From Chamaelirium japonicum (Eukaryota; Streptophyta; Magnoliopsida; Liliales; Melanthiaceae): DNA of 64,000 bases. The notes beneath the pieces are model-generated. The model ran no database searches and had not been told where the DNA came from. It saw only the letters and a list, made by a program, of their open reading frames with translations. The position numbers and the translations under genes were made by a program. This document shows positions 10,184 to 62,460 of the stretch, piece after piece. The stretch covers positions 95,566,195-95,630,194 of the forward strand of contig OX393549.1 of the NCBI GenBank assembly GCA_947650365.1, read 5' to 3'. The stretch's first letter is position 1; each line of letters begins with the position of its first letter.

Positions 10184-10880
10184 TAAAAGAGGTCTTACCC
10201 ACCTATTGAGTAGATGAGTCGTTTTTTTTTTTATTTAGCCCTCCTATTATACAAGCGGTTTTTTTTTAATATTGCTGAACACCTGTTGCCCCTGACATGG
10301 TAGATGAGTACAACCGTCTGCTTTATCCAACCCCGATCGGTGAATCACACTAAGCCCAAAGAAGGGTGTGCTTAGGTGACACATCAGGAAATCTCCATTA
10401 AGATGGAAAACTGGATGGCCGAATAGCAGCTCTCAGAGACCCCCTCATCCCCCAGCTTCTGATCCTCCCCCCTGTGTTCTCCGATCTCATCATCATTGGC
10501 GATCTTGCTTTTGAAATTTCCGCCTCCCTCCTCCTTTTGATCGGTGATCTTTCCCTCATGATCGTCGTTGGGGATCGATCCGTGCATGGGATCGGATTTA
10601 CCGGAGGGCAAGAGGGGGATCTCCCCAAGCGCCTCTTATCCCATTTCGCCCCTTTTGATTTCACGACGATCGATCACAAAAAAATACGAGAAAGGAGATG
10701 AACGGCATAACGAGGGTTCGGGAACGAGTGGAACAAACGGGTTGGCGATATTGAAAGGAGTAGAGGAGGGGTGGGGTTTTATCATGATCAAAAATTAAAA
10801 AAAATAAACCCACTGGTACAACAGGCAGTCAACAATATTAAAAAAAAGAACTAATATGTCTATCATGCAGTTTTTTTAAA
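10165..10880. repeat. TIR element, copy A
   Basis: First of three related copies (the others are near 11030-11750 and 13440-13885). Imperfect terminal inverted repeats of about 30 bp lie at 10259-10288 and 10819-10848 (TTTAATATTGCTGAACACCT against its reverse complement). The interior is GC-richer and has no convincing gene; open frames on both strands shift between copies. It looks like a non-autonomous DNA transposon, family unknown. Confidence 0.6.
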
Positions 10881-11030
10881 CCCTAAACCCTAAACCCTAA
10901 AACCCTAAACCCAAATTGGGATAATCAAAGAGTCAAAATGTGACTTAATATATCATCAACAAGTAAGATCATTTAGTGTGCAATAATTTTAAAAAAAAAA
11001 TCATAAAAAATATAATGATAAGAAAAGATA
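10870..11030. other. Spacer with short telomere-like tract
   Basis: It begins with five CCCTAAA-type units, then an A-rich stretch that recurs before the third repeat copy near 13340-13440. No gene seen. Confidence 0.5.
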
Positions 11031-11750
11031 CAAAAGTTGGGTTTTCGTTAAAAGAGGTCTTACCCGCCTAATGAGTAGATGGGTCGATTTTTTTTTTTAT
11101 TTAGCCCACCTATTGTACAAGCGGTTTTTTTTTTTTTTAATATTGCTGAACACCTGTTGCACCTGACGTGGTAGATGCCTACAACCGTCTGCTTTATCCA
11201 ACCCCGATCGGTGAATCACACTAAGCCCAAAGAAGGGTGTGCTTAGGTGACACATCAGGATGTCTCCATTAAGATGGAAAACTGGATGGCCGAATAGCAG
11301 CTGTCAGAGGCCCCCTCATCCCCCAGCTTCTGATCCTCCCCCATGTCTTCTCCGATCTCATCATCATCGACGATCTTGCTTTTGAAATTTCCGCCTCCCT
11401 CTTCCTTTTGATCGGTGATCTTTCCCTCATGATCGCCGTTGGGGATCGATCCGTGCATGGGATCGGATTTACCGGATGGCAAGAGGGGGATCTCCCCAAG
11501 CACCTCTTATCCCATTTCGCCCTCTTTTGATTTCACGACGATCGATGACAAAAATACGAGAAAGGAGATGAACGGCACAACGAGGGTTCAGGAACGAGTG
11601 GAACAAACGGGTTGGCGATATTGAAGGGAGTAGAGGAGGGGTGGGTTTTTATCATGATCAAAAATTAAAAGAAATAAACCTGCTGGTACAACAGGCGGTC
11701 GACAATATTAAAAAAAAGAACTAATCTGTCTATCATGCAGTTTTTTTAAC
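11030..11750. repeat. TIR element, copy B
   Basis: Nearly identical to copy A over about 700 bp, with inverted ends at about 11125-11160 and 11689-11718. Small indels shift all reading frames relative to copy A, which argues against coding. It leads directly into the captured gene fragment on its right. Confidence 0.6.
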
Positions 11751-12120
11751 TTCTCATTTGGTGTCATCTCACACATTTCATCAGGCAACTTCTCCATACA
11801 TTGCGGTGCATGATTTATAAAATTATCCGAGGATCTACAAGAAGAAAGATCGGTTGCATTTTCATATTTAACCCTTGATGTTGCCTGTGGAAAAGAAACT
11901 TGATGTGAGGACAGCTGTAATCCAATGGTGGATAAGGATTGAAAGAGTGTGTGTAACTTGAAGTGGATGCTTCCAAGAAATGCTTTTGCTTGGAAGAATC
12001 TTGAGAAGAATGAGTTTGAGTGAAAACAGGAGAAGAGAGAAACTCCTGATCTGCATACGGTTGCATTTCCTTTCTTTTCTTCTGGTGAGCATCGATTTTC
12101 CATCTTTTTTAGATGCATAT
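11745..12120 (-). pseudogene. Captured gene fragment, possibly LNK-like
   Basis: A minus-strand frame of ordinary amino-acid composition ends in KLPDEMCEMTPNEKLKK at the junction with repeat copy B. The MTPxEK(I/L)xK pattern resembles the conserved MTPQEKIEKLRRRQQ motif of plant LNK clock co-activators, from memory only. A second frame (Q-P-Y-A-D-Q-E-F-L-S-S-P... upstream) suggests a frameshift in the middle. It has no start codon context, no partner exons and is joined to repeats on both sides, so it is a broken fragment. The identity is tentative. Confidence 0.35.
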
Positions 12121-12217
12121 TAACCTGCAGATGTCAAATTGGGATAATCAAAGAGTCAAGAGTGCAGGGATATTTTGCAGTTGAATGCTTTTCTCAGACA
12201 ACACATTAAAACATAAA
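12121..12217. other. Repeat-flanking spacer, duplicated at 13893-14000
   Basis: The sequence starting GATGTCAAATTGGG recurs almost unchanged at about 13917. It belongs to the duplicated composite and holds no gene. Confidence 0.6.
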
Positions 12218-13130
12218 CCAAAATTTTTGAGAAACTGAACAAAAATTATTAATAATTTAATAAACGGAATAAAGTTGTATAATTGGGAAAACAAAAGGAA
12301 TATTATGCCATCTCAAATGGCGTAAAGTATTTATGCCATTTGAGATGGCGTAAAACTGAAGGGGCAAATAAAAACGCCGAAACTGCCCTTTCTTTATGCC
12401 ATTTCAAATGGGGTAAATCCCCTATAAATAATTTACTTTATTTCAAATGGCGTAAAGTCCTACTAAGTTTTAGGATTTAGGGTTAGGGTTTAGGTTTTAG
12501 GGGTTTAGGGTTAGGGTTTAGGGTTTAGGGGTTAGGGTTAGGGTTTAGGGTTTAGGGTTTTAGGGTTTTAGGGTTTAGGTTTTGGATTTAGGGCTTTGGG
12601 CTTAGGGTTTTAGGGTTTAAGATGTTACATTGGCGAAGTTAAAAAATATTTTTTTTTAACCTAAACCCTAAACCCCTAAACCTAAAGCGTCAAACTGAAA
12701 CCCTAAACCCAAAAACCCTAAACCCTAAACCTAACCCGTAAACCCTAACCATAAACGCTAAACCCTAAAACCTAAAACCTAAAACCCTAAACCCTAAAAC
12801 CCTAAACCCTAACCCCTAAACCCCTAAAACCAAACCCTAAACCTAAACCCTAAACCCTAAAACCCTAAACCCTAAATCCAAAACCCTAAAACCTAAAACC
12901 CTAACCCTAAATCCTAAAACTTATTAGGACTTTACACCATTTGAAATGGCGTAAACTATTTATAGGAAATTTACGCCATTTGAAATGGCGTAAAGAAATG
13001 GCAGTTTCGGCATTTTAATTTACCCCTTTAGTTTTACACCATCTCAAATGGAGTAAATACTTTACGCCATTTGAGATGGCGTACTATACCTTTTTTTTCC
13101 AATTATCCAACTATTTAAAAAATATTTAAA
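12218..13130. mobile_element. Fold-back element with telomere-like arms, copy 1
   Basis: A large inverted repeat. Its left arm carries palindromic motifs (ACGCCATTTGAAATGGCGT type, 12300-12450) and then degenerate TTTAGGG repeats (12472-12632). A short centre around GATGTTACATTGGCGAAG follows. The right arm is the mirror image: CCCTAAA repeats (12655-12925) and the same palindromic motifs (12935-13095). There is no coding capacity. The arms could pair into a very long hairpin. It resembles a fold-back or MITE-like transposon that has incorporated telomere-type repeats; the family was not recognised. Confidence 0.7.
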
Positions 13131-13440
13131 TCAATTACGATTGAGCAAAACCGGAAATTCAGTATTCCGGGTGTAGTAAAAACCCACAAGTTAAAAAGGC
13201 AGCCATCGCATGTTGCTTCTTACTAAACTGAGCATCCCAGATACAAGTTTTAAACCCTCCATCCTGGATATCAGGTTTAGTAGTAACCCCTTATTGCACT
13301 AGCTCTAAGGATTGTATATGGGATCTGTAAAAATGTAGACTTGTGAAAAATGTAACTTAATATATCATCAACAAATAAGATCATTTAGTGTGCAATAATT
13401 TTATAAAAAAATCATAAAAAATATAATGATCAGAAAAGAT
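13131..13440. repeat. Spacer repeat shared with the F-box upstream region
   Basis: The stretch from about 13160 to 13380, including GCATGTTGCTTCTTACTAAA, recurs at about 17045-17176 and 17642-17724. There it is interrupted by a hAT-like MITE. No gene is visible. Confidence 0.7.
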
Positions 13441-13890
13441 ACAAAATAGGGTTTTTGTTAAAAAGTGGTCTTACCCGCCTATTGAGTAGATGGGTCGATT
13501 TTTTTTTTTATTTTGCCCACATATTGTAGAAGCGGTTTTTTTTTTTTTTTTTAATATTGATGAACATCTGTTGCACCTGACGTGGTAGATGAGTACAACC
13601 GCCTGCTTTATCCAACCCCGATCGATGAATCACACTAAGCCCAATGAAGGGTGTGCTTAGGTGACACTTCAGGATGTCTCCATTAAGATGGAAAACTGGA
13701 TGGCCGAATAGCAGCTGTCAGAGACCCCCTTATCCCCTAGCTTCTGATCCTCCCCCCTGTCTTCTCCGATCTCATCATCATCGGCGATCTTGCTTTTGAA
13801 ATTTTCACCTCCCTCCTCCTTTTGATCGGTGATCTTTCCCTCAAGATCGCCGTTGGGGATCGATCCGTGCATGGGATCGGATTTACCATC
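13440..13890. repeat. TIR element, copy C (truncated)
   Basis: Homologous to copies A and B from its left side up to about 13885. There it jumps directly to the sequence found at 12097 in the previous unit. The right inverted repeat and the captured gene fragment are therefore deleted in this unit. Confidence 0.65.
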
Positions 13891-14004
13891 TTTTTTAGAT
13901 GCATATTAACCTGCAGATGTCAAATTGGGATAATCAAAGAGTCAAGAGTGCAGGGATATTTTGCAGTTGAATGCTTTTCTAAGATAACACTTTAAAACAT
14001 AAAC

Positions 14005-15020
14005 CAAAATTTTTGAGAAACTGAACAAAAATTATTAATAATTTAATAAACGGAATAAAAGTTGTATAATTGGAAAAAAAAAGGAATATTACGCCATCTC
14101 AAATGGCGTAAAGTAATACCATTTGAGATGGCGTAAAACTGAAGGAGAAAATTAAAATGCCGAAACTGCCCTTTCCTTACGCCATTTCAAATGGCGTAAA
14201 TCCCCAATAAATAATTTACGTCATTTCAAATGGCGTAAAGTTCTTATAAGTTTTAGGATTTAGGGTTTTAGGGTTAGGGTTTATGGTTTAGGTTTTAGGG
14301 TTAGGGTTTAGGGTTTTAGGGTTTAGGTTTTAGGGGATTAGGGTTAGGGTTTAGGTATAGGGTTTAGGGGTTTAGGGATTAGGGTTAGGGTTTAGAGTTT
14401 AGGGTTTTAGGTTTTAGGGTTTAGGTTTAGGGTTTAGGGTTTAGGGGATTGGGCTTAGGGTTTAGGGTTTAAGATGTTACATTGGCGAAGTTAAAAAATG
14501 TTTTTTTTTTAAACTAAACCCTAAACCCCTAAACCTAAAGCGTCAAACTGAAACCCTAAACCCTAAACCCTAAAACCTAAACCCTAAACCCTAAAACCTA
14601 AAACCCTAAACCCTAAACCCTAAAACCTAAAAACTAAAACCCTAAACCCTAAAACCCTAAACCCTAACCCTAACCTAAAAACCTTAAACCCTAAACCCTA
14701 AACCTAAACCCTAAAACCCTAAACCCTAACCCTAAAACCTAAACCCTAAACCCAAAACCCTAAAAGCTAAAACCCTAAACCCTAACCATAAAACCCTAAA
14801 CCCTAACCCTAAATCCTAAAGCTTATTAGGACTTTACGCCATTTGAGATGACGTAAAACTGAAGGGGTAAATTAAAATGCTGAAACTGCCCTTTCTTTAC
14901 GCCATTTCAAATGACGTAAATTCGGTTTTAGAAATGTCATCATTTTTTTCCAATTATCCAACTTTTGTTTCGTTTATTAAATTATTAATAATTTTTGTTC
15001 CTTTTCTCAAAAATTTTTGA
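14005..15020. mobile_element. Fold-back element with telomere-like arms, copy 2
   Basis: Second and more complete copy. The outer arms match from AAAATTTTTGAG near 14006 to its reverse complement near 15019. Palindromic GCCATTTGAAATGGC-type motifs lie at about 14090-14240 and 14835-14930. TTTAGGG-type repeats fill 14252-14470 and CCCTAAA-type repeats fill 14510-14822. The same small centre with GATGTTACATTGGCGAAG lies between them. The element has no open frame of interest. Confidence 0.7.
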
Positions 15021-20635: not shown

Positions 20636-21396
20636 AAAGAAGAAGAAGAGGCAAGGCACTTGTTGGAAGTGCAGAAGATCCGGGCACTTCAAATCGGAGT
20701 GCAAGTAGAAAGAAGGAGAAAGACCTGATTGCTCAGGGTCATCCAAAGTCAAAATAATGCATTCATCGGTTATGCCTTGTCGAGGGATTCCAATGAGGGG
20801 GATGTTCTGATGGCTACCACTGATGTTATATCATATCAGGACTGAAAAATCGACGGCGGAGCCACACATAATATTTGTTCTCACAAAACATGGTTTGACA
20901 GGTATGTGGAGTGCGATGGTGGCAAGTTAACGGCTGGCGATGGTTCCAATGTGTCGATAAAAGGAGTCGAGAATATTCGACTTGAGATGTATGACGGGCA
21001 AGTAGGGACACTCAATGATGTCCATTATGTTCCGGGATGGAGGGGTAATCTATTCTCTCTTTGCAGGCTAGATTTTCTCGGATGCACCTTCACCTATCAA
21101 GGTAGAGTTTTGAAGGTTTGGGATGGAGCCTCCATGATCGTAAAGGGGGCCTTGGGTGGATGCCTATACGGATTAGCCGGGAGGGCAACGGAACTTGCAC
21201 AGTGTTCGGTTAAGAACAAATCTACAGGTGCAGCATACTCAGGGGCCGAAGATGGTCAACAGGTGAGTTCCAGTGGCCAAGTCGAAAGACTTGGGCAATC
21301 ACCAAGCTCAGTGATTAGGCTTCCGGTTCAGGGGCAAAGGTGGCGACAACGATCAAGCAATGTATTCACGATGCAAAGAGTGGTTTGTGTTTAAAA
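20636..21396 (+). pseudogene. Unit 1 gag-protease remnant
   Basis: It starts inside gag with a zinc knuckle, CWKCRRSGHFKSEC (20661-20702), followed by a stop. It continues as the protease-region frame with DGGATHNICSHKTWFDRY and a long KLTAGDGSNVSIKG-type stretch to about 21394. The usual protease D-S/T-G reads DGG. The frame ends in sequence from the RNase H/3' end of the parent element. Confidence 0.75.
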
Positions 21397-21433
21397 AGAT
21401 GCTCATGTCTTGTTATGAAGCCAAAGTGGATTT

Positions 21434-21521
21434 TGTTGAAGATGTAGCTCCAAACAAGTCGCATACAACTCCAAGGTTCGTGAGTGAAGAAACGGTGAAA
21501 GATAGAGCTCTAGAGCTAGGA
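21434..21521 (+). repeat. LTR stub between units 1 and 2
   Basis: After a purine-rich tract comes TGTTGAAGATGTAGCTCC, the LTR start shared with 22977 and 25442. After 88 bp it jumps directly into gag leader sequence, so most of this LTR has been deleted. Confidence 0.7.
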
Positions 21522-21540
21522 GAAGTTTATAATGAAGTAT

Positions 21541-22346
21541 TCAGAGATGACAACCCAAAGTTCAAATCTATAGTTCAAGATTGAGATGTTCGATGGCCAA
21601 ATCAACTTTGCCTTGTGGCAAATTCGAGTCAGGGATGTGTTGATTCAAGGCGGATTGCACAAAGCCCTAAAAGGCGTCAAGCAGGACGTGATGTCGGATG
21701 ATGATTGGATTAAGTTTGATTTGAAGGCGGCAAGCGCGATTCGGATGTGTCTCGTGAAGGTCGTATTGGCAAATTTCTCCAAGGAGACTCCGCGGCAAAA
21801 CTGTGAAAGAAGTTGGAGAGCATATACATGACCCGGTCGCTCATGAACATGTTGTATCTTAAGCAGAAGATCTACGCTCTTCAGATGGCGGAAGGTACAA
21901 GGATCTTGAAGCATATCTCGGCCTTCAATCAACTGACGGAAGAACTCCTTAATATCGATGAAGACATGAAGGAGACGAAAAAGACGCTTCTTTTTCTAAG
22001 ATCATTGCCCCGATCCTATGAGCACATGAAGGTCACAATGCTCTATAATAAAGAAACCATCAGGTTGGAGGATGTCACAAGTATACTTCTCGCAAACGAG
22101 CTTTGGTTGAAGGAAACGATCGAGACAGGAGGTGATGTTCAGTCCAAAGCGCTAATGGTGGTTGCGAGGGTGAAGAAAAAGAAGAGGCAAGGCACTTGTT
22201 GGAAGTGTAGAAGATTCGGGCACTTCAAATCGGAGTGCAAGTGGAAAGGAGGAACAAGACTGGATTGGTCAGGGTCATCCAAAGTCAAAGATGACGCATC
22301 CACCAGTTATGCCTTATTGAGGGATTCAGATGAGGGGATGTTCTGA
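21541..22346 (+). pseudogene. Unit 2 gag
   Basis: Two overlapping frames (21586-21831 and 21813-22346) together give a near-complete Copia gag of the UBN2 type. Visible landmarks are FDGQINFALWQIRVRDVLIQ near the start, LRSLPRSYEHMKVTML in the middle, and the zinc knuckle CWKCRRFGHFKSEC near the end. A frameshift at about 21815 separates the parts. Gag would form the particle shell around the element RNA. Confidence 0.85.
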
Positions 22347-22976
22347 TGGTTACCACTGATGTTATATTAGATCAGGACTAGATAATCAATAGCGGGGCCA
22401 CACATCATATTTGTTTGCACAGGGCATGGTTTGACAGGTATGCGGAGTGCGATGGTGGCAAGTTGATGGCTAGCGACCGTTCCAAGGTTTCGATAAGGGG
22501 AGACGAGGATATTCGACTTGAGACATCTAACGGCCATAAACGGACACTCAAGGATATCCGTCATGTTCTGGGGAGGAGGGGTAATCTACTCTCTCTCTCT
22601 TTCCAGGCTAGATTCTCTCGGATGCACCTTCACTGGTCAAGGTGGAGTTGCGAAGGTTTGGGACAGAACCTCTATGATCTTGAAAGAGGCCTTGGATAAA
22701 TGCATATACAGATTAGGCGGGAGGGCAGCAACACTTGCACGGTGTTCGATAAAGAACAAATGTGCAGTTGCAACACGCTTAGGAGGCTGAAGATGGTCAG
22801 AAGGTGGGTTCCAATGGCCAAGGCAAAAGACTTGAGCAATCACAAAGCTTGGTGATTGGGCTCTCGGTTCAGGGGCAAAGGCGACGACAACGATCAGGAG
22901 ATGGATTCATGATGCAAAGAGAATGGTTCATATTCAAGAAGATGCTCATGTTTTGTTATGAAGCCAAGGTGGATAT
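22347..22976 (+). pseudogene. Unit 2 protease-region remnant and 3' end
   Basis: This region is homologous to the protease part of units 1 and 3 (SGATHHICLHRAWFDRYAEC can be read across stops). It is followed by the same jump to the 3' end and the purine tract before the LTR at 22977. Several frameshifts are present. Confidence 0.7.
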
Positions 22977-23957
22977 TGTTGAAGATGTGGCTCCAAATAA
23001 GTCACATACAACTGCAAGGTTCGTGAGCGAAGAAACGACAAAAGACAAAGCTCTAGAGGTAGGGTACCCTCTCCAAAGGGCCAGATTGACAGGCCTAGTG
23101 ATGGTGTTTTCCTTTATCATTTTTACTTAAAAAAAAAGGAAGAACGATCAAAGAAAACAACCTTATCTTGATATCGAAATGGGCTTGCAATAGATTTATA
23201 TGGAGAAACAGCTATTCCACCATTCGGATTGGGCCATCCGGACGTAGTACCTAATTGTTGAAGATGTGGCTCCACACAAATTGCATACAACTCTAAGGTT
23301 CGTGCGTGAAGAAACGACAGAATACATAGCTCTGTAGTTAGGAGGAGTCGGCCAGCCACAGTCGTGCGCACAACCTGGAAAGTCGTGCGCATGACTGGCA
23401 TCGAAATATTTTTCGGGCAAGTAAACAGGATTGGGTCATGAGCACAACCTCCCAAGTCGTATTCACGACTTGATTTGGCTGCTCGTTGGTGAAGCGATTC
23501 AGGCTGCGTTTTTTCGTGGAACTCCTTCTATAAGTTGTGCACGAATATATCCCGATAAAAGGGATGACCTAGGATGAACCTAGGAGAGAAGAGAAGCTTC
23601 AAGGGAGGGCAATCATCTTCAAAGGAGATGGAGAGCGATCCAAAGAGGCTTGTGGGCTTTGAGAATTATTTTTCTTTGTTTCTTCGAGGTGAGTGGGTTG
23701 CAAGTAGTCTCTTGTGGGAGGGCTTTTCTTTGTGGGTATTGTATGGGATTGGGCGAGGCAAAAGATCTTGTACTTGGTTATTTCCATAATAGTGAATCCA
23801 GATATCGTCGTTTCCTGATATCGTGTGTGATTGCTTTGTGCTTTGTTTCTTTGATCATCTTCTCGGTAGTGAAGAGACATCATCTTCTCCGTGGAAGTTC
23901 CTCGCTTGTCATATTCTTCTTGCTCCTTCCGCTATGCAAGGGCCTCGGATCATAATA
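22977..23957 (+). repeat. LTR between units 2 and 3
   Basis: This 981-bp LTR starts TGTTGAAGATGTGG and ends next to a tRNA-Met-like primer site (TTGGTATCAAC at 23960). It carries a second copy of its own start at about 23260 after a 0.2-kb insert of unknown origin (23063-23258). The CAACA end seen in the last LTR (31231) is here TAATA. ACGACT-containing inverted motifs (23350-23470) recur in the LTR-like sequence near 60230. Confidence 0.75.
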
Positions 23958-25441
23958 AATTGGTATCAACGTATCTTGTTCGTGATTCGGAGGCACCAGT
24001 TTGATAACGAAGAATTTGGAGATGACGACTCAAAGTTTGAATCTATGGTTCGAGATCGAGAAGTTTGATGGCCAAATCAACTTTGGCTTATGGCAAATTC
24101 AAGTCAGGGATGTGTTGATTCAAGGCGGATTGCACAAAGCTTTAAAGGGCGTCAAGCCAGATGCGATGTCGGACGACGATTTGATTGAGTTTGATTAGAA
24201 GGCAGCAAATGCGATTCAAATGTGTCTCACGAAGGTCATGTTGGCAAACGTCTCCGGAGAGGTCTCCGTGGCAAAACTATGGAAGAAGTTGGAGAGCATG
24301 TATATGACCCGATCACTCACGAACAGGTTATACCTGAGGTAGAAGATCTACGCTCTCCAGATAGCAGAAGGTACAAGGATTGTGGACCATATCTCGACCT
24401 TCAATCAACTGATAAAAGAACTCCTTAATGTCGATGAAGATATGAAGGAGACGAATAAGGCGCTTCTTCTTCTATGATCATTGCCCCAATCCTACGAGTA
24501 TTTATAGGTCACAATGCTCTACGGAAAAGAAACCATCAAGTTAAGGATGTCACAGGTACGCTTCTTGCAAACGAGCTTCGGTTGAAGGGAATGATCGAGA
24601 CGGGAGATGATGTTCAGTCCAAGGCACTAATGGTGGTTGCGGGGGTGAAGAAGAAGAGGCAAAACACTTGTTGGAAGTGTAGAAGATCTGGGCACTTCAA
24701 ATCAGAGAGCAAGTGGAAAGGAGGAGCAAGACCGAATTAGTCAGAGTCATCCAAAGTCAAAGATGATAGATCCGCCAGTTATGCCTCGTCGAGGGATTCC
24801 AATGAGGAATTTGTTCTGATGTCCATCACTGTTATATCAAATCAGGACTGGATAATCGATAGCGGGATCATATATCATATTTATTCGCACATGGCATGGT
24901 TTGATAGATATGAAAAGGGCGATGGTGGTAAGTTGATGGCTAGTGACGGTTCCAAGGTGTCAATAAGGGGAGTCGAGGATATTCAACTTGATATGTTTGA
25001 AAGGCAAGTACGGGCACTTAAGGATGTTCGTCATGTTCCAGGGTGGAGAGATAATCTAGTCTCTCTTTCCATGCTAGATTCCCTCGGATGCACCTTCACC
25101 GGTCAAGGTGGAGTTGTGGAGGTTTGGGATGGAGCTTCCATGATCATGAAGGGGGCATTGGGTGGATGCCAATACAGATTAGCCGGGAGGGCAGCGACAC
25201 GTGCACGGTGTTCGGTGAACAACAAATATGCAAGTGCAGCATGCTCAGGGGGCGAAGATGGTCAGGAGGTGGGTTCCAGTGGCCAAGTTGAAAGACTTGC
25301 CCAATCACCAAGCTTGGTGATTGGGCTTCTAGTTCGGGGGAAAAGACAACGATAACGATCAAACAATGGATTCACGATGCAAAGAGAATGATTTGTGTTC
25401 AAGAAGGTGCTCATATCTTGTTATAAAGCCAATGTGGAGAT
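23958..25441 (+). pseudogene. Unit 3 gag-protease remnant
   Basis: The primer site is followed by gag (24001-24198, then frames broken by stops to 24740) with zinc knuckle CWKCRRSGHFKSES, in which the last cysteine is lost. The protease region (24819-25355) begins with SNQDWIIDSGIIYHIYSHMA. The D-S-G triad is intact here. After 25350 it jumps to the polypurine end as in the other units. Confidence 0.8.
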
Positions 25442-25838
25442 TGTTGAAGATGTGGCTTTAAACAAGTTACATACAACTCCAAGGTTAGTGAGCGAAGAAA
25501 CAGTGAAAGACAGAGCTCTGGAGTTAGGAGGAGCCGGCCAGCTACAGTCGTACACATGACCTGAAAAGTCGTCCGCCCAACTGGCATCGACATATTTTTC
25601 GGGCAAGTAAATAAGATTGGGTCGTGTGCACGACTTGATTTGGCAGCACATTGGTGAAGCGGTTCGAGCTGCTTTTTCTCATGGGGCTCATTCTACAAGT
25701 TGTACACAAATGTATTCCTATAAAAGGGATGGCCTAGGACGAACCTAGGAGAGAAGAGAAGCGTCAAGAGAGGGCAATCATCTTCAAAGGAAAGGGAGAG
25801 CGATCCAAGGATGCTTGTGGACTTCGGGATGGTTTTCT

Positions 25839-51600: not shown

Positions 51601-54449
51601 ACTAAACCGGTGGACTATCCCCCCCCCCCCCCCTCCTCACGCGGAGCATGTGTCTCAAGGCACAATAGCTAAGGGTGCAACTCACACCCCAAAACCCGGG
51701 TCATAAGGAGAGGTCCACAGCGGGTATATCAAACGGCCGATGGTTGCCCCCCCCCCCCTACCGATGTGGAACTAAACCGGTGAACTATCTCAATAACCAC
51801 AAAGTCAAACATAGACGTGTTAGGTTGACAACTTCGTGAGTATATTCCACACTCAAGAGGAAAAAGAATGAAGAAAAAGCCACCTGCTTAAGATCAAGCT
51901 TTCTAAACCAATATTAGTGCAATGCCTAAAGCAAATGATTAGGCAACAAAAGATGTCAATAGAGAGGGTCTAAGCAATATGCATTGCAATTGCAACTTAT
52001 GTTCTTACAGTACGATGAAGATTCTTTGAAGAAAGTGTATGTCATATGTTCACCGCCATACAATGATTTAAGAAATAATCTCTCAAAAGTGAGGCTTTTC
52101 AGAATATTCAGAATAAAAACATTAGTACGGAAAACGACATTGGTATAAAATAATTTTAGCGTAACTGGATCTGGGTGATGGCCTATCTTAAGCACAGACT
52201 CCATTGAAAAAAAAAAAACATTAAGGATAACTATCCATTGAATCATGAACCACAAAACACTAGCTTTGATGTTACAAATCAAATCCTTACCTTTCTAGAA
52301 AGACAATGATGCTCGAGGATGTAAATGCTTCATTAGAGTCGAAAGGCTTATATAGTTGGACTATATTTCCATACAATAATAACATTTAAAAGTGTACACC
52401 TGCAAAACTATAAGACTAAAAATGGAAAATGGAAGAATGTTGCCAACAATAACAATAACTGTAAACTAAAGTACTAAACAAGGTGTATGTTGCCCTAAAA
52501 TTCCAAACCATCAAAATAGAAGATGCAAAAGTGATGCAGTCCTTCATTGCCTAATAGAGAAAGTACCTCCAATAGGCCACTGCTTTGGATCATGAATGCA
52601 AAGGAACGATTTGGATCTCATTTTTCAACAGCTGCATTAGATAATGATTCCACCACAACAATTTTGATCCAGCAATATGACAGAAAATCGCATGAAAAAT
52701 TAAATGCTCATATTTATTCATAAGAGTGATGCAAGTGTTCGAGGTAATGTAATTCAAAACAGAGATAAGGAAATGTTGGATGAAATCCATTTAATGTAGA
52801 CGATGTAACTCCAGAAAATACGTACAAGATAATTTTAAACAAAGAAAAAGAGAAAAGAGACTGGCCGTGGAAGGAAATGTGTCTGATTGTTAGAAAGGAA
52901 AATATAAATACAATATTACGAGGATAGATTTCACCATAAGTTACCTAGCGAACTAATTTTTAAAAAAATTAACAATTACAACCTGGGTTTTGGGGTGTGA
53001 GGGTATCTAACATTTAAGGGGTTAGATTTCACCATAAGTTACCTAGCGAACTAATTTTATAAATAAAAAAAAATGGCCGAGTGAAGATTTACAAACACCT
53101 AATATGATATTAAAAGCAATTAAACCAAAACTAAAAAAAGACTTTAAAACTGCTAATTCACAGCTACAAGAAGAGAGCAACTGTCCAAAATAGTACCTGG
53201 AAATGTACAATTGTTGACTTGACAAGCCTTGTATTGAGCTGAAAATCATAGAAAGTGCTTCCCTTCTCCACCTGCTCGCAATCCTAGAGAGTAACAGATT
53301 ACTTTAGCAATTCAAAAGTAAAGGGGCCTACATAAGTTGGGATGTAATAAAAAGACAACAATTAGAAGATTTTATAGCATGCACAATCCTCATAACAGAA
53401 TTTATATCGGAAAAAAAAAAAAGAATGTGAACACTACAATGGTACAGATCATGGTTCGAAAACTCTATAGATAACAAGTCGTACAGGTCTTCTACCGAGT
53501 GTAGATACAAGAATCGATACCGGTATGAGTCCCCACTTGGCCAATATCCGTATCAACCCGAGTCAAACCCAATACGTCCGAGTTGTATCAGTCTGACCCA
53601 CAACCACAATCACTAACATCCGGCCAAGGTTCGAAAACACGGTTTCCATCGAAATTTCAGAATGGGAAAAAAAACGGTTTGGATCGAAATTTCAGAAGAG
53701 GAAAAAACGTGATATTTCGTCAAAATTTCAGCCCCTCTTGCAATAGCTGTACAACATGGGGGATAAGTATATATTTTGTGAACTTTCGTGATATGTATTC
53801 ATGCCTTACTCTCTTTTTTCTGAGTACTATCGCTTATACGGACAAAGATACCGAGTTTTTGAACCTTGGTACAGATTCAAATCACCAGCTAGCTATATAT
53901 TACAGTATTACAGATTATAAATTTGGTCCCCCAAAAAAAAAAACACAGGAGCAGAACAATATACTAATTTTTTTCGCTCCAAAAAGCCTTTTTTGTTTTA
54001 AAAACCAATGATCTCTCCCAAAGTCGTCACCCAAAACATGAAAGAGCAGTGGGTCGAGAAGCCAAACCTTATCCCGAACCTTAGGAGATCCAGAGAGGTT
54101 CACATAGTTCTTGTACTGCTTCAGCCTCATCTCGCGGTACTTATCCCTCGAGTAGTTCAGCCTCCCCCACGGGATCCCCTGTATATCCTTTCCTTCACGG
54201 TACTCGGACGCCGAAGTGTCAGTCTTCTGATCGCCCTGAATGATCGAGAACAGAGGGTAAGACTCAAATACCCAGATAAAAACCCAACCTTTTCCCCACA
54301 ACTATTCAACGATATGATACCTCGCCAACATCGGAGCCCTCGCCGTCCCTCTGCCGATCGCCCTGTTCGAACTCATCGCCGTCGGGCTCAGCCATGTCGA
54401 ACCCATCCTCGACCATGTACTCCAGATCGTCGTTCAGGTACTGTGCCAT
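42128..54449 (-). CDS. WD40 repeat protein (transducin/WD40 superfamily), nine coding exons
   Basis: A 438-aa protein can be assembled from nine exons on the minus strand: 54449-54321, 54235-54080, 53283-53197, 44115-43981, 43893-43783, 43702-43611, 42993-42888, 42787-42701, 42541-42128 (with stop). All introns have GT/AG ends and the phases fit. Landmarks are the acidic N-terminus MAQYLNDDLEYMVEDGFD, KDIQGIPWGRLNYSRDKYRE, the beta-propeller start LRNLLWATSKHDVYMMQNYS, VAGGFQGELICK, and a clear WD repeat in the last exon (GHLDYSFASAWHPDGRILAT...LWDV). This matches the conserved plant family similar to the uncharacterised WD repeat protein C2A9.03 of fission yeast. The molecular function is unknown and a scaffold role is assumed. 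Intron 3 is 9.1 kb. The reading frame is intact throughout. Confidence 0.93.
42597..42674. repeat. (CA)n(GA)n microsatellite in WD40 intron 8
   Basis: A run of CA repeats (42597-42626, with CG interruptions) is followed by about 24 GA repeats. It lies in the intron between exons 9 and 8. Confidence 0.9.
43049..43580. mobile_element. MITE with long inverted ends in WD40 intron 6
   Basis: About 125 bp at each end are inverted copies. For example, AACCCCTGGAAACGTTATAT on the left pairs with the reverse complement of the right side, and TTACTTGTGCAAATC is shared. The ends resemble MULE-type MITEs. A target duplication is not clear (A-rich flanks). The element lies wholly inside the intron between exon 7 (42993) and exon 6 (43611). 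Confidence 0.75.
47487..47848. mobile_element. PIF/Harbinger-like (Tourist) MITE
   Basis: It is flanked by TTA on both sides (47484-47486, 47849-47851). The ends GCATCTACAATGGACTCC and the reverse complement of GGAGCCCGTTGGAGATGC match at 15 of 18 positions. A TTA target and GAGCATCTCCAACGGGCTCC-like ends are typical of Harbinger-type MITEs in plants. No coding. Confidence 0.75.
47990..48142. repeat. Short tandem duplication (81-bp spacing)
   Basis: About 72 bp starting AACACTAAGCCTTCAACAAAC occur twice, 81 bp apart, with one or two differences, in intron 3. Confidence 0.85.
51508..51800. repeat. Duplicated LTR-like repeat with C-runs
   Basis: Two copies of a segment starting CCCCAAAACCCG(A/G)GTC, about 167 bp apart (51523 and 51690). 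Each holds TACCGATGTGG(G/A)ACTAAACCGGTG and a run of about 12-14 C. Its start (TGTTAGAAACCCTCA) recurs inverted at about 52981-53012. This could be a pair of LTR tips, but no internal region was found. Confidence 0.5.
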
Positions 54450-54861: not shown

Positions 54862-55647
54862 AAAAGGAGGCCGGAGGGCGGAGGGGGTGGGTCCCCCACG
54901 GATGGGCGTAACTAACCATCTGAACCCGGAAAGAGGGCCGTCAGCTACTCCGTTATCGTCGGCGGCCGGTAACGCCGCCCACCTAATAGCGGCCGGTGCG
55001 CTGTGGGTCCCAGCCCGATCGGGGTCGGTAGTGGCATGCAGGTGTTGGCGAAGGGAGCCTCCCTTCACTGGTACGGCAGACACCAAGCAAGTTGACTATC
55101 TTTACGTTATGTCAAGAGTGCAGGTCGCTATTTGAGTGCCACTACCAGGCGACCCATCCAATGGGCTCCATCCGAATATGGGTAATATCGTTCCATTTTA
55201 AGACTTCAGTGGATGATCTATATGTACAACCCCCATAGTTTTTAAGTAAATCCATCTGTATCTTTGTATATGGTTTTCGACGATCCAAATGAGATATGTG
55301 GTAGTGATGATGATTCGACGGACTAGGCCTACTTACCTTTCACTGTTGACCTAAAACTTTAATCAAAAGGTTATTATCTTTTGCGCAAGCTGATTTTTTT
55401 TTTATTTTTTATAAAAATATCATATGAGTAAACCGTTGGAGTTTTTTTTTCATCTTATGCATAAGCTAAGTTGGCAATCATTTGGCTATGCAAAGTACAG
55501 ATGCATATGGGTCATCCGTTGGAGATGCTCTTACGGCCCAATTTTACTCCCACGAGTGATGAGGGGAAACATTTTCAGCACATCCTGTGTAGCATACAAC
55601 CGCGGGGCCCATCGTGATTCAATGAGACATGGGGTAGCATGCCCCAG
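54862..55647 (-). promoter_or_regulatory. Upstream region of the WD40 gene
   Basis: GC-rich near the gene, then ordinary sequence to the LTR element. There is no second gene and no clear motif. The young LTR element begins at 55648. Confidence 0.4.
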
Positions 55648-56976
55648 TGATGCAGACCTGATCCGCACCTTTAGTTCGTCGCTGCATCTTCAGTCATCCC
55701 CAGAGACCGTTTATTTCAGTCGTTTTATTTTTAGGCTTGGATGACATTAGCCGTTTGGGCTTGTTAGTCGTTTATTTCAGTTTTTGGCCATTTTTCCCTC
55801 TTTTTGGCCTTATTTCAGCATTTAGTTTTATTTCTGTTCTTGCCCAGTTCATGGGGGATGTCCATGATCTCATCCGAGGGCTTTTCGGATTGAATCCGGG
55901 TCTTCTCGGGTGAGTTTCAGCATGATATTAATAAAATTATGGGTGTGTGTGTTTGCGGGGCACCGACGGACGAGATTAGATCTCGAAACCGACGGTTAGA
56001 TGGCGAAATAACTTAAATTTGATGATGTGGCATCAATTGGGCTTCAATTAGGGCTATGTGGGCTTCAATTAGGGCTTTTCCGTCCCTTGCCCGTGCGGAA
56101 ACCGAGCCAATCCGCCCCCTCTTCCGTCCCTTAACTTCTCTCTCTCTTTTCCCCTTATTTCTCTCTCTTTTCCTTTCCTTTTTTGGCCCATTGCATCCCC
56201 ACCATTCCCCCTTGATTTCCCTTTGATCTTGGCCATCCAAAAAGAAACCCTAGTTCTACAAAAAGGGGAAGATTGAAGGAGATTTCAGATTTTGATAGTT
56301 GCTGAAATTCGTGCCTCTTCGTGAGTGCTACCGGGCGAGACTCGTGTCCCCGATCCTCGCCGATTCCACGACTTCGCCTCGTGAAGGCTTTGGGCTTCGT
56401 TTTCCGAAGGTTCCGGCTTCTCCCGACGTCCGGCCTTGCTCCGTGTGCGGGATCATCGGCGCATCCTCGCAATCGACCCACGGCGGGAAACCCCAGGCAG
56501 TATCTACCCTTTTCCTTTATTTTCCCCATCGCATCCGCTTCGTTTTCATTAGTTTCCATTGCCTCCGCTCCGCATCGCAGCCGTCATCATCCTTTTCATC
56601 GCTAGTTGAAGCCATAACTTTGCCTATTTATTAGATTCGCCATATATCGTCTGTCGGTAACCCTAGCAAGCATTCGTAACCTATTTTAGTGAAAATCTGT
56701 TGCATGCCTATTGTCCAATTTACATATCTATTGCTGCGATTGACCCTATTATGTGCTGAAATCAGTTTTTTTGTGATAGTATTGCGCTCTTTAATTGTTT
56801 TAAGTCTTAACCCTGCTTTATGTTGATTGCATAAACTTTAGAACTGCATAAGATAACTTCTGGTTGCTGTCCTTTTGATCTATACGTCGCTATATTGATA
56901 AATAAAACCTAGTCATTGACCAAAGAAAACCCTAAAGGGTTCAGGATTGTAGTGTGCCTTATTGGTGCCTGCATCA
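55648..56976 (+). repeat. 5' LTR of the young element
   Basis: 1329 bp, TGATGCAG to CTGCATCA. No base difference from the 3' LTR was noticed. The small frames inside recur unchanged in the other LTR and are not genes. Confidence 0.95.
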
Positions 56977-56978
56977 AG

Positions 56979-56991
56979 TTGGTATCAGAGC
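56979..56991 (+). other. Primer binding site of the young element
   Basis: TTGGTATCAGAGC lies two bases after the LTR end. It matches the 3' end of initiator tRNA-Met. Confidence 0.9.
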
Positions 56992-57144
56992 TCGAAAGAA
57001 CCTGTTCGGGTTTCTTTTGAGTGCTGAATTTCAGCAAACCCTAATCTTTTCTTTGCTGATTTTGCATAGGTCATCGTCTTGCTTGATTTGCATTTAGTGT
57101 TAGGTTTACGTCTAGCGTTAGGATTGCATCGTGTATCTGACGCC

Positions 57145-58263
57145 ATGTCCTGTCGTCGCGTTCGATCCCATCCTTATTCGCTTGACCCACTAGATACCCA
57201 CACCTATAAACAATTTGTCAGGCTATATAAATCTCTTGAGCCATGTCCTACCCTTTTCCCGAGATCTTCGATGGAACGTAGATACTCCTCTTCGATTCGA
57301 GATCAAGCCCATGACCTGGATCTATCTTCTAAACCTTTTGTTCAATGGGTTTTACGGAGTCCTTCAGTGCCAACCTTGAAAATCAGATATATCGAAACCC
57401 AGCTCTTACTTGATGATATTGAGGATGAGTTGGCATGGAGGGAGAAGCAGAACCAGAGGCTTGCCCGATACAGCAGGCCACCACCTCCAGCAGAGCCTCC
57501 ACCTCCTGTGGAGTACCCGGTTCCACCAGTAGCCCCACTTGAGAAGCATCCGCCTCCTGTGGAGCTTCCTCGGCCAATGCCTACGGAGGAGCCACCTCTT
57601 CCGTCAGCGACTACAGAGGAGTTCCTTCCGCCTTCTCCAGTGCCTACAGCGGTGCCACCTCCCCCTTCAGTGGCTTCAGAGGAGCTCTTTCCACCTTCAG
57701 CAGTGCCTACAGAGGAGCCACTTCCTCCGGTAGTGACTACGGAGAGGCTTCTCCTACCTTTCACAGAGCTTACAGAGGAGACACCTCCACTTGCAGTTCT
57801 TCCTACAGCAGAGACACCCATGGAGCCTCCGTCTTCCGTGGAGCTTCCATCACAGCTACAGTCAGAGCCAGTTGGGGAGCTTCAGACAGCTAAGCCACTT
57901 GCGCGCTTTGACTTTGTCGGGACTGACCGACCACCTACAGCTCGTGCGCTTCTGTTTTTGTACTTCAGTACCTTCTGGCCCTCGCTCGACGCCAGCACTC
58001 CCTTCGCGAGAGGCCCAGAGGTTGTTGACTGCCCGAGACATCACTTGTTGGGGATTCATCATCAGATCCAGACACAGCGACGTTCCCACGGTGGTGGTCT
58101 CCCTCCTGCTACCGGCGATGTCTTCCGGCGTAAACTCGAGGACGAGTTTTTCGCAGCGGAAGCGATTGATGCAGACCTGATCCGCACCTTTAGTTCGTCG
58201 CTGCATCTTCAGTCATCCCCAGAGACCGTTTATTTCAGTCGTTTTATTTTTAGGCTTGGATGA
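57145..58263 (+). CDS. Proline-rich ORF of unknown function in the young LTR element
   Basis: 372 codons from the first ATG of the frame (MSCRRVRSHPYSLDPLDTHT) to a stop 97 bases inside the 3' LTR. Residues 1 to about 115 look like a folded domain, including TYKQFVRLYKSLEPCP, SSKPFVQWVLRS and a charged helix IETQLLLDDIEDELAWREKQ. About residues 115-260 are a proline-rich tail with irregular TEEPLPP, SEELFPP and PVELP units. The C-terminal part (near RRKLEDEFFAAEA) resembles the final segment of a retroelement polyprotein. I recognise no gag, protease or polymerase motif. It could be a degenerate gag, a captured host exon or an accessory protein. The frame is open, but expression is unproven. 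Confidence 0.55.
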   Translation: MSCRRVRSHPYSLDPLDTHTYKQFVRLYKSLEPCPTLFPRSSMERRYSSSIRDQAHDLDLSSKPFVQWVLRSPSVPTLKIRYIETQLLLDDIEDELAWREKQNQRLARYSRPPPPAEPPPPVEYPVPPVAPLEKHPPPVELPRPMPTEEPPLPSATTEEFLPPSPVPTAVPPPPSVASEELFPPSAVPTEEPLPPVVTTERLLLPFTELTEETPPLAVLPTAETPMEPPSSVELPSQLQSEPVGELQTAKPLARFDFVGTDRPPTARALLFLYFSTFWPSLDASTPFARGPEVVDCPRHHLLGIHHQIQTQRRSHGGGLPPATGDVFRRKLEDEFFAAEAIDADLIRTFSSSLHLQSSPETVYFSRFIFRLG

Positions 58264-59495
58264 CATTAGCCGTTTGGGCTTGTTAGTCGTTTATTTCAGT
58301 TTTTGGCCATTTTTCCCTCTTTTTGGCCTTATTTCAGCATTTAGTTTTATTTCTGTTCTTGCCCAGTTCATGGGGGATGTCCATGATCTCATCCGAGGGC
58401 TTTTCGGATTGAATCCGGGTCTTCTCGGGTGAGTTTCAGCATGATATTAATAAAATTATGGGTGTGTGTGTTTGCGGGGCACCGACGGACGAGATTAGAT
58501 CTCGAAACCGACGGTTAGATGGCGAAATAACTTAAATTTGATGATGTGGCATCAATTGGGCTTCAATTAGGGCTATGTGGGCTTCAATTAGGGCTTTTCC
58601 GTCCCTTGCCCGTGCGGAAACCGAGCCAATCCGCCCCCTCTTCCGTCCCTTAACTTCTCTCTCTCTTTTCCCCTTATTTCTCTCTCTTTTCCTTTCCTTT
58701 TTTGGCCCATTGCATCCCCACCATTCCCCCTTGATTTCCCTTTGATCTTGGCCATCCAAAAAGAAACCCTAGTTCTACAAAAAGGGGAAGATTGAAGGAG
58801 ATTTCAGATTTTGATAGTTGCTGAAATTCGTGCCTCTTCGTGAGTGCTACCGGGCGAGACTCGTGTCCCCGATCCTCGCCGATTCCACGACTTCGCCTCG
58901 TGAAGGCTTTGGGCTTCGTTTTCCGAAGGTTCCGGCTTCTCCCGACGTCCGGCCTTGCTCCGTGTGCGGGATCATCGGCGCATCCTCGCAATCGACCCAC
59001 GGCGGGAAACCCCAGGCAGTATCTACCCTTTTCCTTTATTTTCCCCATCGCATCCGCTTCGTTTTCATTAGTTTCCATTGCCTCCGCTCCGCATCGCAGC
59101 CGTCATCATCCTTTTCATCGCTAGTTGAAGCCATAACTTTGCCTATTTATTAGATTCGCCATATATCGTCTGTCGGTAACCCTAGCAAGCATTCGTAACC
59201 TATTTTAGTGAAAATCTGTTGCATGCCTATTGTCCAATTTACATATCTATTGCTGCGATTGACCCTATTATGTGCTGAAATCAGTTTTTTTGTGATAGTA
59301 TTGCGCTCTTTAATTGTTTTAAGTCTTAACCCTGCTTTATGTTGATTGCATAAACTTTAGAACTGCATAAGATAACTTCTGGTTGCTGTCCTTTTGATCT
59401 ATACGTCGCTATATTGATAAATAAAACCTAGTCATTGACCAAAGAAAACCCTAAAGGGTTCAGGATTGTAGTGTGCCTTATTGGTGCCTGCATCA
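58167..59495 (+). repeat. 3' LTR of the young element
   Basis: 1329 bp and apparently identical to the 5' LTR. It is preceded by the short purine tract GCGGAAGCGA. Confidence 0.95.
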
Positions 59496-59529
59496 CCCAG
59501 CCCATGAGGGTAGTGACCCCCATAGGCTG

Positions 59530-60002: not shown

Positions 60003-60559
60003 GTCCCCCAGCACTTGAAGCATGATGATTGGCTCTAGGGACAGTAGGCTCCGCGATTGTATGGTACGTAGGATGTGCTAAAAATCCCCCCCAAATTGAG
60101 GATCATCATTAACGCAATGCCATAGATGCTATCGTATGCAACAGTGTTCTTGAGCAGTCCTAGTCCATGGATACAGGCTCATGTTGGAGAGAGATCCTAG
60201 TTGAAGAATGAATATGAAACTGTTTACAGATAGTCATACGCACGACTGTGGAAAGTCGTGCGCACAACCTGAAGCCCGAGATTTTCGACGCATCTTTGAC
60301 AAGACAGTCGTGCCCATGACTGTGGCAGACAGCACAGGAAGACCTAGTCTTGCACGATTTGATTTTCCTTTGGAAGCTGTTTTAAGGTGAATTTCAGGAT
60401 TGGGCTTATGTTACATATTCCCTTGATATATAAATTGGATCTAGGGTTTTTGGAAGGTAGATTTGAGAGGGCCTTTGGTGGACAGAATATTGTTTGCTTG
60501 AGAGGAGAGATTAGAGAGCCATCTTTGAGGGTTCTCAATGGAGGGTTCAAGGAACTATT
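60003..60559. other. Unassigned sequence with LTR-like motifs
   Basis: Inverted ACGACTGTGG/CAGTCGTGC motifs at 60235-60320 resemble the LTRs of the Copia array near 23350. No gene is seen. Confidence 0.4.
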
Positions 60560-60631
60560 TGTAGACACACAAATTGTGTCTAAACCGGACCCGACTTGCG
60601 TGCACCTATGCGGATGCGGACCCGACATGCG

Positions 60632-60839
60632 CTCGGACCCGGACCCGACTCGAAGGCCCCTACGTGGATGCAAACCCGACGCGCTCGGACCCGGACCCGA
60701 CTCGAAGGCACCTACGTGGATGCAAACCCGACGCGCTCGGACCCGGACCCGACTCGAAGGCCCCTACGTGGATGCAAACCCGACGCGCTCGGACCCGGAC
60801 CCGACTCGAATGCCCGTACGTGGATGCAAACCTGACGCA
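60632..60839. repeat. 52-bp tandem repeat (four copies)
   Basis: CTCGGACCCGGACCCGACTC-type units start at 60632, 60684, 60736 and 60788. The period of 52 is not divisible by three, so it is not protein coding. Confidence 0.9.
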
Positions 60840-62460
60840 CACCACGACTCAGACCTGATTCGCACCCAACAAGGGGGCCCGATGGGCCCATCCTCAAGTG
60901 GGGCCCACCCGGCCCCCTACTACAAGACCGAACCCCTTTAGGGGGGGTGGCCGGCCTTGCATGCAAGGAAAGAAAAGAAAGAAAGAAAGAAAAGAAAGGA
61001 AAGAAAAGAAAAGAAAAAAAAAAAGGGGCCGGCCTTGCAAGGGAAAAAGAGAAGAACGGAAAGAAAAGAAAGGAAAGAAAAGAAAGGAAAGAAAAGGAAA
61101 AGGAAAGAAAAGAAAAGGAAAAAGAAAAGAAAGGAAAGAAAAGAAAAGGAAAGAGAAGAAAGAAAAGGAAGAAAACACCGCCATGCGCGGGGGGAGGTTG
61201 CGTATGACGTCTGCACACACGCGGATCTGCGCCGATCCCTCGATCCGACGCACAAGAAGAAGCGCCCGATCGCCATCGATTTCGTGTGCGAAATCCAGCC
61301 ATAATTGCCTCGCCAGAAAAGGAAAACAAATAAGTGTTATTCCCCTCATCAATGGATGAATAAATCTTGGGCAATTATGGGGGAGATATTAAAGGGATTT
61401 AAAATTAAAACTTCTCATATCTCTCTCCCCCCCCCCCCCTTCGCCTATAAATAGAGGGGGAGGGGGAAGGCTCAAGGGGTCGATTCGGATGGCCAGGCGA
61501 CGAAGCTCTGCAGAAGAGGAGACGCTTCTTCATCGACCCAAGGCTTCACGAGGCACGGTCAAGCCTGTCCCGTCGGGATCGGCTTACCGAAAGCTCTCAT
61601 CAACGTGAAGACCCTTGCACACGAAGATCAAGCCTTCGACTCCGTGCACGAAGAAGAAAGCTCGGAGAAGAAGAACCCTTCGACTCCAAAGACGCCAGAA
61701 GCAAAGGCCGGAGAAGAAGATCGGAGCGGCACTACCCCGTCGTCTCCAACAAGCCTTCGACTCCGATCAAGCCCAAAAGCCTGGAGAAGAAGAGGAGCGG
61801 CACTACCCCGTCGTCTCCAACAAGCCTTCGACTCCGATCAAGCCCAAAAGCCCGGAGAAGAAGATAAGCGGCGCTACACCCGTCATCTTCAACAAAGCCT
61901 TCGACTCCGATCAAGCCCAAAAGCCCGGAGAAGAAGAGAAGCGGCGCTACACCCGTCGTCGTCAACAAGGTCTTCGACTCCGATCAAGCCCAAAAGCCCG
62001 GAGAAGAAGCCGACGCCATAAGGTCGATGGTTGAAGACTGAAGACGAAGCGCGGGAGCTCTGCAGAAGAGGAGACGCTTCTTCATCGACCCAAGGCTTCA
62101 CGAGGCACGGTCAAGCCTGTCCCTTCGGGATCGGCTTATCGAAAGCTCTCATCAACGTGAAGGCCCTTGCACACGAAGATCAAGACTTCAACCCCATGCA
62201 CGAAGAAGAAAGATCGGAGAAGAAGACCCTTCGACTCCGAAGACGCCAGAAGCAAAGGCCGGAGAAGAAGCTCGGAGCGGCACTACTCCGTCGGCTCCAA
62301 TAAATCCTCGATCCCGATCAAGCTCCAAAGCCCGGAGGAGAGAAACGAAGCGTCATCACCCCATCGTCTTCGACAAACATCTACGCCATCCACGAAGAAG
62401 AAAGCCTGGAGCAGATCGTTTGAAGCGTCGCTACCCCGTCGTCTTCATCAAGAAAAGCCG

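Follow-up and report, generated by a model that had tools for sequence, protein, structure and literature searches.

A young family of non-autonomous LTR retrotransposons with an orphan, partly constrained open reading frame in Chamaelirium japonicum

Non-autonomous long terminal repeat (LTR) retrotransposons are common, as judged from the 174 groups of putative non-autonomous elements counted in an oil palm survey (PMC4608283), and why some of those in plants spread well without enzymes of their own is an open question. The kinds nearest to the element described here are TR-GAG elements, noaCRM of hop, the Retrosat2 group with its open reading frame (ORF) called ORF0, Bs1 of maize and Retand (PMC11963269). 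The analysis concerns a stretch of 64,000 nucleotides from Chamaelirium japonicum (GenBank assembly GCA_947650365.1, contig OX393549.1, positions 95,566,195 to 95,630,194 of the forward strand), referred to below as the window, of which positions 55648-59495 are occupied by an LTR retrotransposon with a single 372-codon ORF. With a probability of roughly 0.72, this element is a recent copy of a young non-autonomous family of hundreds of copies, derived from Ty3/Gypsy elements and most likely copied in trans, in which an orphan ORF has replaced gag and pol.

The element can be compared with each of the described kinds. The Inpactor rule assigns elements of at least 2 kb with two LTRs and no mobility domain to the large retrotransposon derivatives (LARDs) and those under 2 kb to the terminal-repeat retrotransposons in miniature (TRIMs). 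At 3848 bp, the window element is too long for a TRIM and falls among the LARDs, which it also resembles in being non-autonomous, uniform in structure, present in many copies and devoid of gag-pol domains. The interior of barley LARDs is, however, reportedly conserved and non-coding, whereas the window family possesses a long frame, with purifying selection acting on its N-terminal part. TR-GAG elements such as AT5TE33540, which belongs to Copia, have in common with the family the two LTRs, the single ORF and, as outlined in PMC8704663, movement without a pol of their own, but their sole ORF is a Gag, and the window ORF is not recognizable as one by Pfam, zinc knuckle or profile comparison. 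In noaCRM, PBS (primer binding site) motifs and LTR are described as common with an autonomous Gypsy element (PMC12371157), and the same logic applies to the window family. The dominant noaCRM form is summarized there as lacking reverse transcriptase (RT), RNase H (RH) and integrase (INT) while retaining other gag-pol parts (PMC12371157), whereas nothing of gag-pol can be recognized in the window family except a possible pol-end tail. Retrosat2, RIRE3 and RIRE8 are outlined as Gypsy elements with an orphan, fast-evolving ORF0 after the 5' LTR; there, however, ORF0 accompanies a full gag-pol ORF1, in the case of Retrosat2 within more than 12 kb (PMC3485330), while the window ORF, compared with ORF0 by description only, stands alone in 3.85 kb, and the TGTCACACCC LTR ends of RIRE8 and Retrosat2 differ from those of the window family. 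Bs1, as presented in a review, is likewise an LTR element and carries a chimeric ORF derived from foreign sequence, but its segments have been traced to named host genes (PMC13317346), and the window family has hundreds of copies. Among the papers listed on non-autonomous LTR elements whose ORFs are conserved, captured or proline-rich, none describes the window ORF in its title or displayed abstract. The original prediction, made from the sequence of the window, had considered a non-autonomous element bearing such an ORF unusual. This holds for the orphan sequence, which is odd, but not for the architecture, which is already known from TR-GAG and noaCRM; the element is thus of a known kind, and the orphan, partly constrained ORF is its new part.

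Alignment of the two LTRs of the window element revealed 0 differences (1329/1329 bases identical), with identity stopping exactly at both ends (extension past either end = 0). Their termini, TGATGCAG and CTGCATCA, constitute a perfect 8-bp inverted pair and CCCAG is found on either flank, as had been predicted. Direct LTRs, short inverted TG..CA ends and a target-site duplication (TSD), the hallmarks of LTR retrotransposons, are therefore all present. The PBS, TGGTATCAGAGC, which we take to be the complement of the 3' end of the initiator methionine tRNA, starts 3 nt past the 5' LTR and recurs in other copies, and the GCAGCGGAAGCGAT stretch before the 3' LTR is conserved among copies, although pyrimidines interrupt its purine run. 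The interior spans 1190 bp and is mostly taken up by the ORF, composed of 340 interior codons, one codon spanning the junction and 31 codons in the 3' LTR (Table 1). This interior frame of 340 codons is longer than expected by chance: when the interior was shuffled 1000 times with dinucleotides preserved, the longest frame reached 231 at most and 68 on average. On the minus strand, a frame of 159 aa overlaps the ORF.

Table 1. Features of the LTR retrotransposon, in window coordinates
Feature	Position	Strand	Basis
Left target-site duplication, CCCAG	55643..55647	.	sequence
5' LTR, 1329 bp, TGATGCAG...CTGCATCA	55648..56976	+	LTR alignment, relatives
LTR-to-ORF leader, 168 nt; first part common to gag-bearing elements	56977..57144	+	
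Primer binding site TGGTATCAGAGC	56980..56991	+	sequence; LTR-end/PBS junction recurs elsewhere in genome
372-codon ORF, crossing the 3' junction into the 3' LTR	57145..58263	+	
ORF N-terminal domain, residues 1-112, under purifying selection; helices predicted with low confidence	57145..57480	+	
ORF proline-rich linker, residues 113-253, 63-nt (21-codon) repeats, ~31% proline	57481..57903	+	
ORF C-terminal region, residues 254-340, without significant selection; helices predicted with low confidence	57904..58164	+	
Polypurine-tract-like stretch GCAGCGGAAGCGAT, adjoining the 3' LTR, within the ORF	58153..58166	+	
3' LTR, 1329 bp, same sequence as 5' LTR	58167..59495	+	
Right target-site duplication, CCCAG	59496..59500	.	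sequence

The interior had been predicted to hold no gag or pol and a single unassigned ORF, and a Pfam scan of this ORF agreed, returning no family at E-values up to 10 (HMMER filters drop most matches above ~0.1). Likewise, no gag family was found in a Pfam scan of 18 members, where the sole match (BPS, E 0.2, in one member) is at chance level. Neither Pfam nor profile comparison with a related gag identified the ORF as a known gag. It contains no CCHC zinc knuckle, and no Ty3/Gypsy-type gag or pol (RT-RH-INT) was matched in the interior ORF. No PDB sequence matched the N-terminal (N) domain or the family profile, and when 16 slices of other elements were searched with the ORF by tblastn, the only matches were proline- or lysine-rich and of low complexity (best E 3e-5). 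An AlphaFold2 model of the window ORF alone, which places helices towards the two termini but not in the linker, has a mean predicted local distance difference test (pLDDT) score of 49.8 and provides no usable fold. The ORF was also considered as a remnant of pol and this origin was rejected: only its last codons (LEDEFF...) look like the pol end of a relative by eye, and DNA matches between the C-terminal part and that pol end are at chance level.

The size and age of the family were assessed across 1,518,659,071 bases of genome sequence in 3253 contigs. DNA searches with the LTR and with the interior yielded 2377 and 1082 first-look candidates, respectively, the best 40 of each being scored. 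The exact junction of ORF end and LTR occurs 306 times in the genome (138 forward, 168 reverse), and a 32-base stretch leading from the PBS interior into the leader has 388 exact sites (197 forward, 191 reverse), with 0 occurrences of the reversed control in both cases; the 388 sites include other elements, at least 5 of the 100 places listed leading into gag. LTRs and TSDs were measured in 36 distinct full copies with automatically found boundaries, window copy included, leaving out L029, L033 and L035 as repeats of copies already counted. The 5-bp duplications match in 32 of these copies, and in seven, one of them the window copy, the LTRs differ by no substitution, with small indels in two of the seven. 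The median LTR divergence of ~0.0016 translates into ~0.06 Myr at an assumed rate of 1.3e-8 substitutions per site per year, marking a young burst of insertions. Most LTRs start with TGATGAAG (30/36) and four with TGATGCAG, so that the window copy is of the minority type. Two of the five loci fetched with wide flanks (L025, L027) are solo LTRs with target duplications. L013 and L014 have flanks and TSD in common and are probably one duplicated insertion. In L050 and L051 the 5' and 3' LTRs differ far more from each other than in other copies.

Several copies also depart from the simple arrangement. The two LTRs of L051 (region of G000:C12:28669546) differ by ~8%, as do those of L028. In L051 this is so despite a matching TSD, and its LTRs have different nearest relatives, which would fit template switching between packaged RNAs and suggests chimeric reverse transcription between subfamilies. 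Interiors paired ~2.45-2.52 kb apart, the spacing expected of LTR-interior-LTR-interior-LTR tandem arrays of the window family, occur at G000:C9:34512678-34516387, C133:387915-391559 and C291:197858-201504. At L010 (G000:C3:78283300-78287950), one family copy is nested within the LTR of another.

A search for a partner sharing LTR ends and primer site, proposed along with the original prediction, led to a gag-pol relative with the same LTR start, LTR sequence, PBS and leader. The LTR end and PBS without the following T were found at 195 places in the genome (control 0), and 20 of the downstream stretches were read. Eight of these hold the ORF behind a short leader, three (L065, L074, L075) a long leader followed by another frame, and nine other sequence, some of it with gag-like frames of a second kind, as seen by eye. 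The long leader of L065, L074 and L075 is 87-88% identical to the window leader over 107-134 nt and contains the same PBS. The L065 element was read in four further slices. The gag-like starts of L065, L069 and L073 had no gag match, which was obtained in the next L065 slice only, for Retrotrans_gag (E 2.1e-16) together with Ty3_capsid; RVT_1, RT_RNaseH, Integrase_H2C2 and rve follow at 3-5 kb, and SH3_Tf2-1 further 3'. A chromodomain at the integrase end would mark the relative as a chromovirus; a chromodomain-like stretch seen by eye is cut by a stop and has no Pfam match. This relative has a 3' LTR that starts with TGATGCAG; its alignment with the window LTR covers 1217 bases, with 84 gap columns, at 82.8% identity. 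LTR, PBS and leader are hence common to the window family and a Gypsy gag-pol element, as in a Gypsy-derived non-autonomous partner. A 36-mer from the start of the relative's gag frame has 29 sites in the genome (control 0), which can be set roughly against the 306 ORF-end junctions, both being exact-match counts. Of the ten comparable gag sites on C1, C2 and the part of C3 that was listed, five are preceded, at exactly 290 bp, by a perfect match to the leader stretch of the window type. One of these five was read and presents a leader 86.6% identical over 134 bp, LTR pieces 81-82% identical and a ~1.2 kb insert in the LTR; given these identities, the gag-bearing elements are a sister lineage and not the window family itself. 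When the relative's gag was compared with the ORF family by profile, the probability was 0.6%, and 0.1% for the N-terminal part of gag (shallow profile, Neff, the effective number of sequences, 1.2). Downstream of the L074 leader, L081 (G000:C5:78895000-78896600) carries a satellite-like tandem repeat in place of the expected pol.

The ORF was read in 47 distinct copies. It is open to the 3' LTR in 40, broken in six (L013, L014, L026, L050, L051, L055) and cut by the locus edge in one (the second copy in L024), with L043 tallied as open though its last codons are frame-shifted. The ORF is therefore not broken in all other copies, and the proposal that this is a non-autonomous LTR element of very recent origin, bearing an unassigned ORF, is supported on this point as on LTR divergence and gag matches. 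Size variants of 3, 15 and 63 nt all preserve the frame, the 63-nt unit being the proline-rich repeat. Selection was measured in the named (plus) frame only. Pairwise ratios of nonsynonymous to synonymous substitution (dN/dS), computed from 34 intact ORFs, are 0.73 over all pairs (N domain 0.43, linker 1.05, C region 0.57) and 0.50 over the 101 pairs with at least 50 differences (N domain 0.37, linker 0.68, C region 0.43). On a grid of codon-model dN/dS values (omega), the N domain is best fitted by 0.4 in 50 sequences, an omega of 1 being worse by 18.7 in twice the log-likelihood difference (2dlnL). Polymorphisms in the 34 ORFs show an excess of silent changes among singletons (57 vs 44.7 expected, P 0.015) and a weak one among those common to 2-4 copies (22 vs 17.1 expected, P 0.087). 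Between the window copy and divergent or short-leader copies, the N-domain ratio is 0.28-0.71, and 0.29-0.56 for eight stop-free short-leader copies; L061 (0.71) and L064 (0.48) each contain a stop, and L018, L019 and L028 are uninformative, with at most three N-domain differences from the window copy. Taken together, these values point to an N domain constrained in the main lineages, with little constraint elsewhere in the ORF.

These observations are compatible with a mechanism in which the window family would have retained the cis parts of its lineage (LTRs, primer site, leader and terminal purine-rich tract) and has no gag-pol. The LTR would drive an RNA bearing the lineage's primer site and leader, which Gag and Pol of relatives with the same LTR ends, PBS and leader could package and reverse-transcribe, and an integrase would then insert the copy, making the 5-bp duplication. 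The single orphan protein is made up of the N domain, the repeat-built proline-rich linker, the C region and a short LTR-encoded tail. Since the N-domain constraint is otherwise hard to explain, the protein most likely helps the copying of its own RNA, and would thus serve that RNA (through packaging, particle assembly or escape from silencing) and not the plant. A more speculative extension, which we advance tentatively and think will probably prove too strong, is that the ORF founds a new class of non-Gag retroelement accessory protein, evolved or captured and kept by selection at the level of the element, which wins access to the particles of a relative or evades silencing and so lets the family out-copy its helper lineage.

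A number of results weigh against this account of trans-mobilization with a selected ORF. The copies were chosen as best matches to the window copy and are biased to young ones, old decayed copies being under-represented. The relative's LTR is 17% diverged from that of the window family, its purine tract CCGGGGGAGTT is unlike GCAGCGGAAGCGAT, and its pol is decayed, with frame breaks and stops; gag-pol relatives probably move the family today, but perhaps not this decayed one. Selection is also uneven along the ORF. The best linker omega lies at the grid edge of 1.5, with 1.0 worse by 12.3 (44 sequences), a value that may be inflated by misaligned repeats or recombination, and the best C-region omega, 0.7, is not different from 1 (2dlnL 1.7; 40 sequences). 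Polymorphisms present in at least five copies carry no purifying signal (6 silent against 10.0 expected, beside 22 replacement changes; P 0.97 for a silent count this high), and N-domain ratios among divergent copies reach 1.00 (L012 vs L063) and 0.83 (L022 vs L063).

The little or no constraint on linker and C region, the widely common polymorphisms not depleted in amino-acid changes and the N-domain pairs at ratios of 0.8-1.0 would all be expected if the ORF were a passenger, a piece captured from a host gene that does nothing for the element and is intact only through the youth of the copies. The copies are indeed very young by LTR divergence, and plant LTR elements are documented to have captured genes, as a review relates for Bs1 (PMC13317346). 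No donor gene came to light in the genome searches, which scored the 40 best candidates and at that depth would not have revealed one. Such a passenger would not account for the N-domain omega of 0.4 and the poorer fit of an omega of 1 there, for the low ratios between the window copy and the stop-free short-leader copies, for size changes that stay in frame, or for the retention of the ORF behind both leader types, and we regard this origin as doubtful, though deserving of serious consideration. Less likely is that the ORF encodes a strongly diverged or reduced Gag, as in a TR-GAG element, whose helical N and C parts and proline-rich linker form the particle while pol is supplied by relatives. 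Its position directly after the leader is that of gag in the relative, helices are predicted, with low confidence, at both of its ends, and movement of one TR-GAG element is reported (PMC8704663); against this stand the 18 members without a gag family match, the missing zinc knuckle and the profile comparisons with the relative's gag, whose very low probabilities led us to rate the idea slightly lower still.

It is also improbable, and more so than a diverged Gag, that the ORF is an ORF0-like accessory gene as in Retrosat2, RIRE3 and RIRE8, lost from or unsampled in the gag-pol relatives, even though a fast-evolving ORF0 upstream of gag-pol and without known relatives provides, as summarized in PMC3485330, a precedent. 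In L065, L074, L075 and L083 the gag-leading frame begins at most a few hundred bases from the PBS and leaves no room for such a gene (gag being confirmed behind L065 only), and the stretch from pol to the 3' LTR in L082 is without the ORF, in a comparison of few relatives read in slices. We therefore retain the trans-copied family with an orphan ORF in place of gag-pol as the best explanation. A young family of many copies near gag-pol relatives, with a partly selected non-Gag frame, would make it possible to test how non-autonomous elements spread.

The window family also supplies recent insertions, the present one lying ~1.2 kb upstream of a putative gene start. The distance to this neighboring gene had been given as ~0.8 kb, but its candidate start codon lies at 54449 on the minus strand. 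The WD40 identity attributed to the gene was not confirmed, seven ORF fragments having no WD40 match and yielding just two hits, both short of their Pfam cut-offs. The arms of a 39-bp inverted repeat, 85% complementary, lie to either side of the LTR element (55571-55609 and 60047-60085), as if the latter had inserted into a small terminal-inverted-repeat element resembling miniature inverted-repeat transposable elements (MITEs). Beside the LTR element, at 60565-60855, frames seemingly built of short repeated peptide units, as judged by eye, mark a tandem repeat, and elsewhere in the window, at 10259-14987 and 20639-25829, direct and inverted repeats of ~150-300 bp are clustered.

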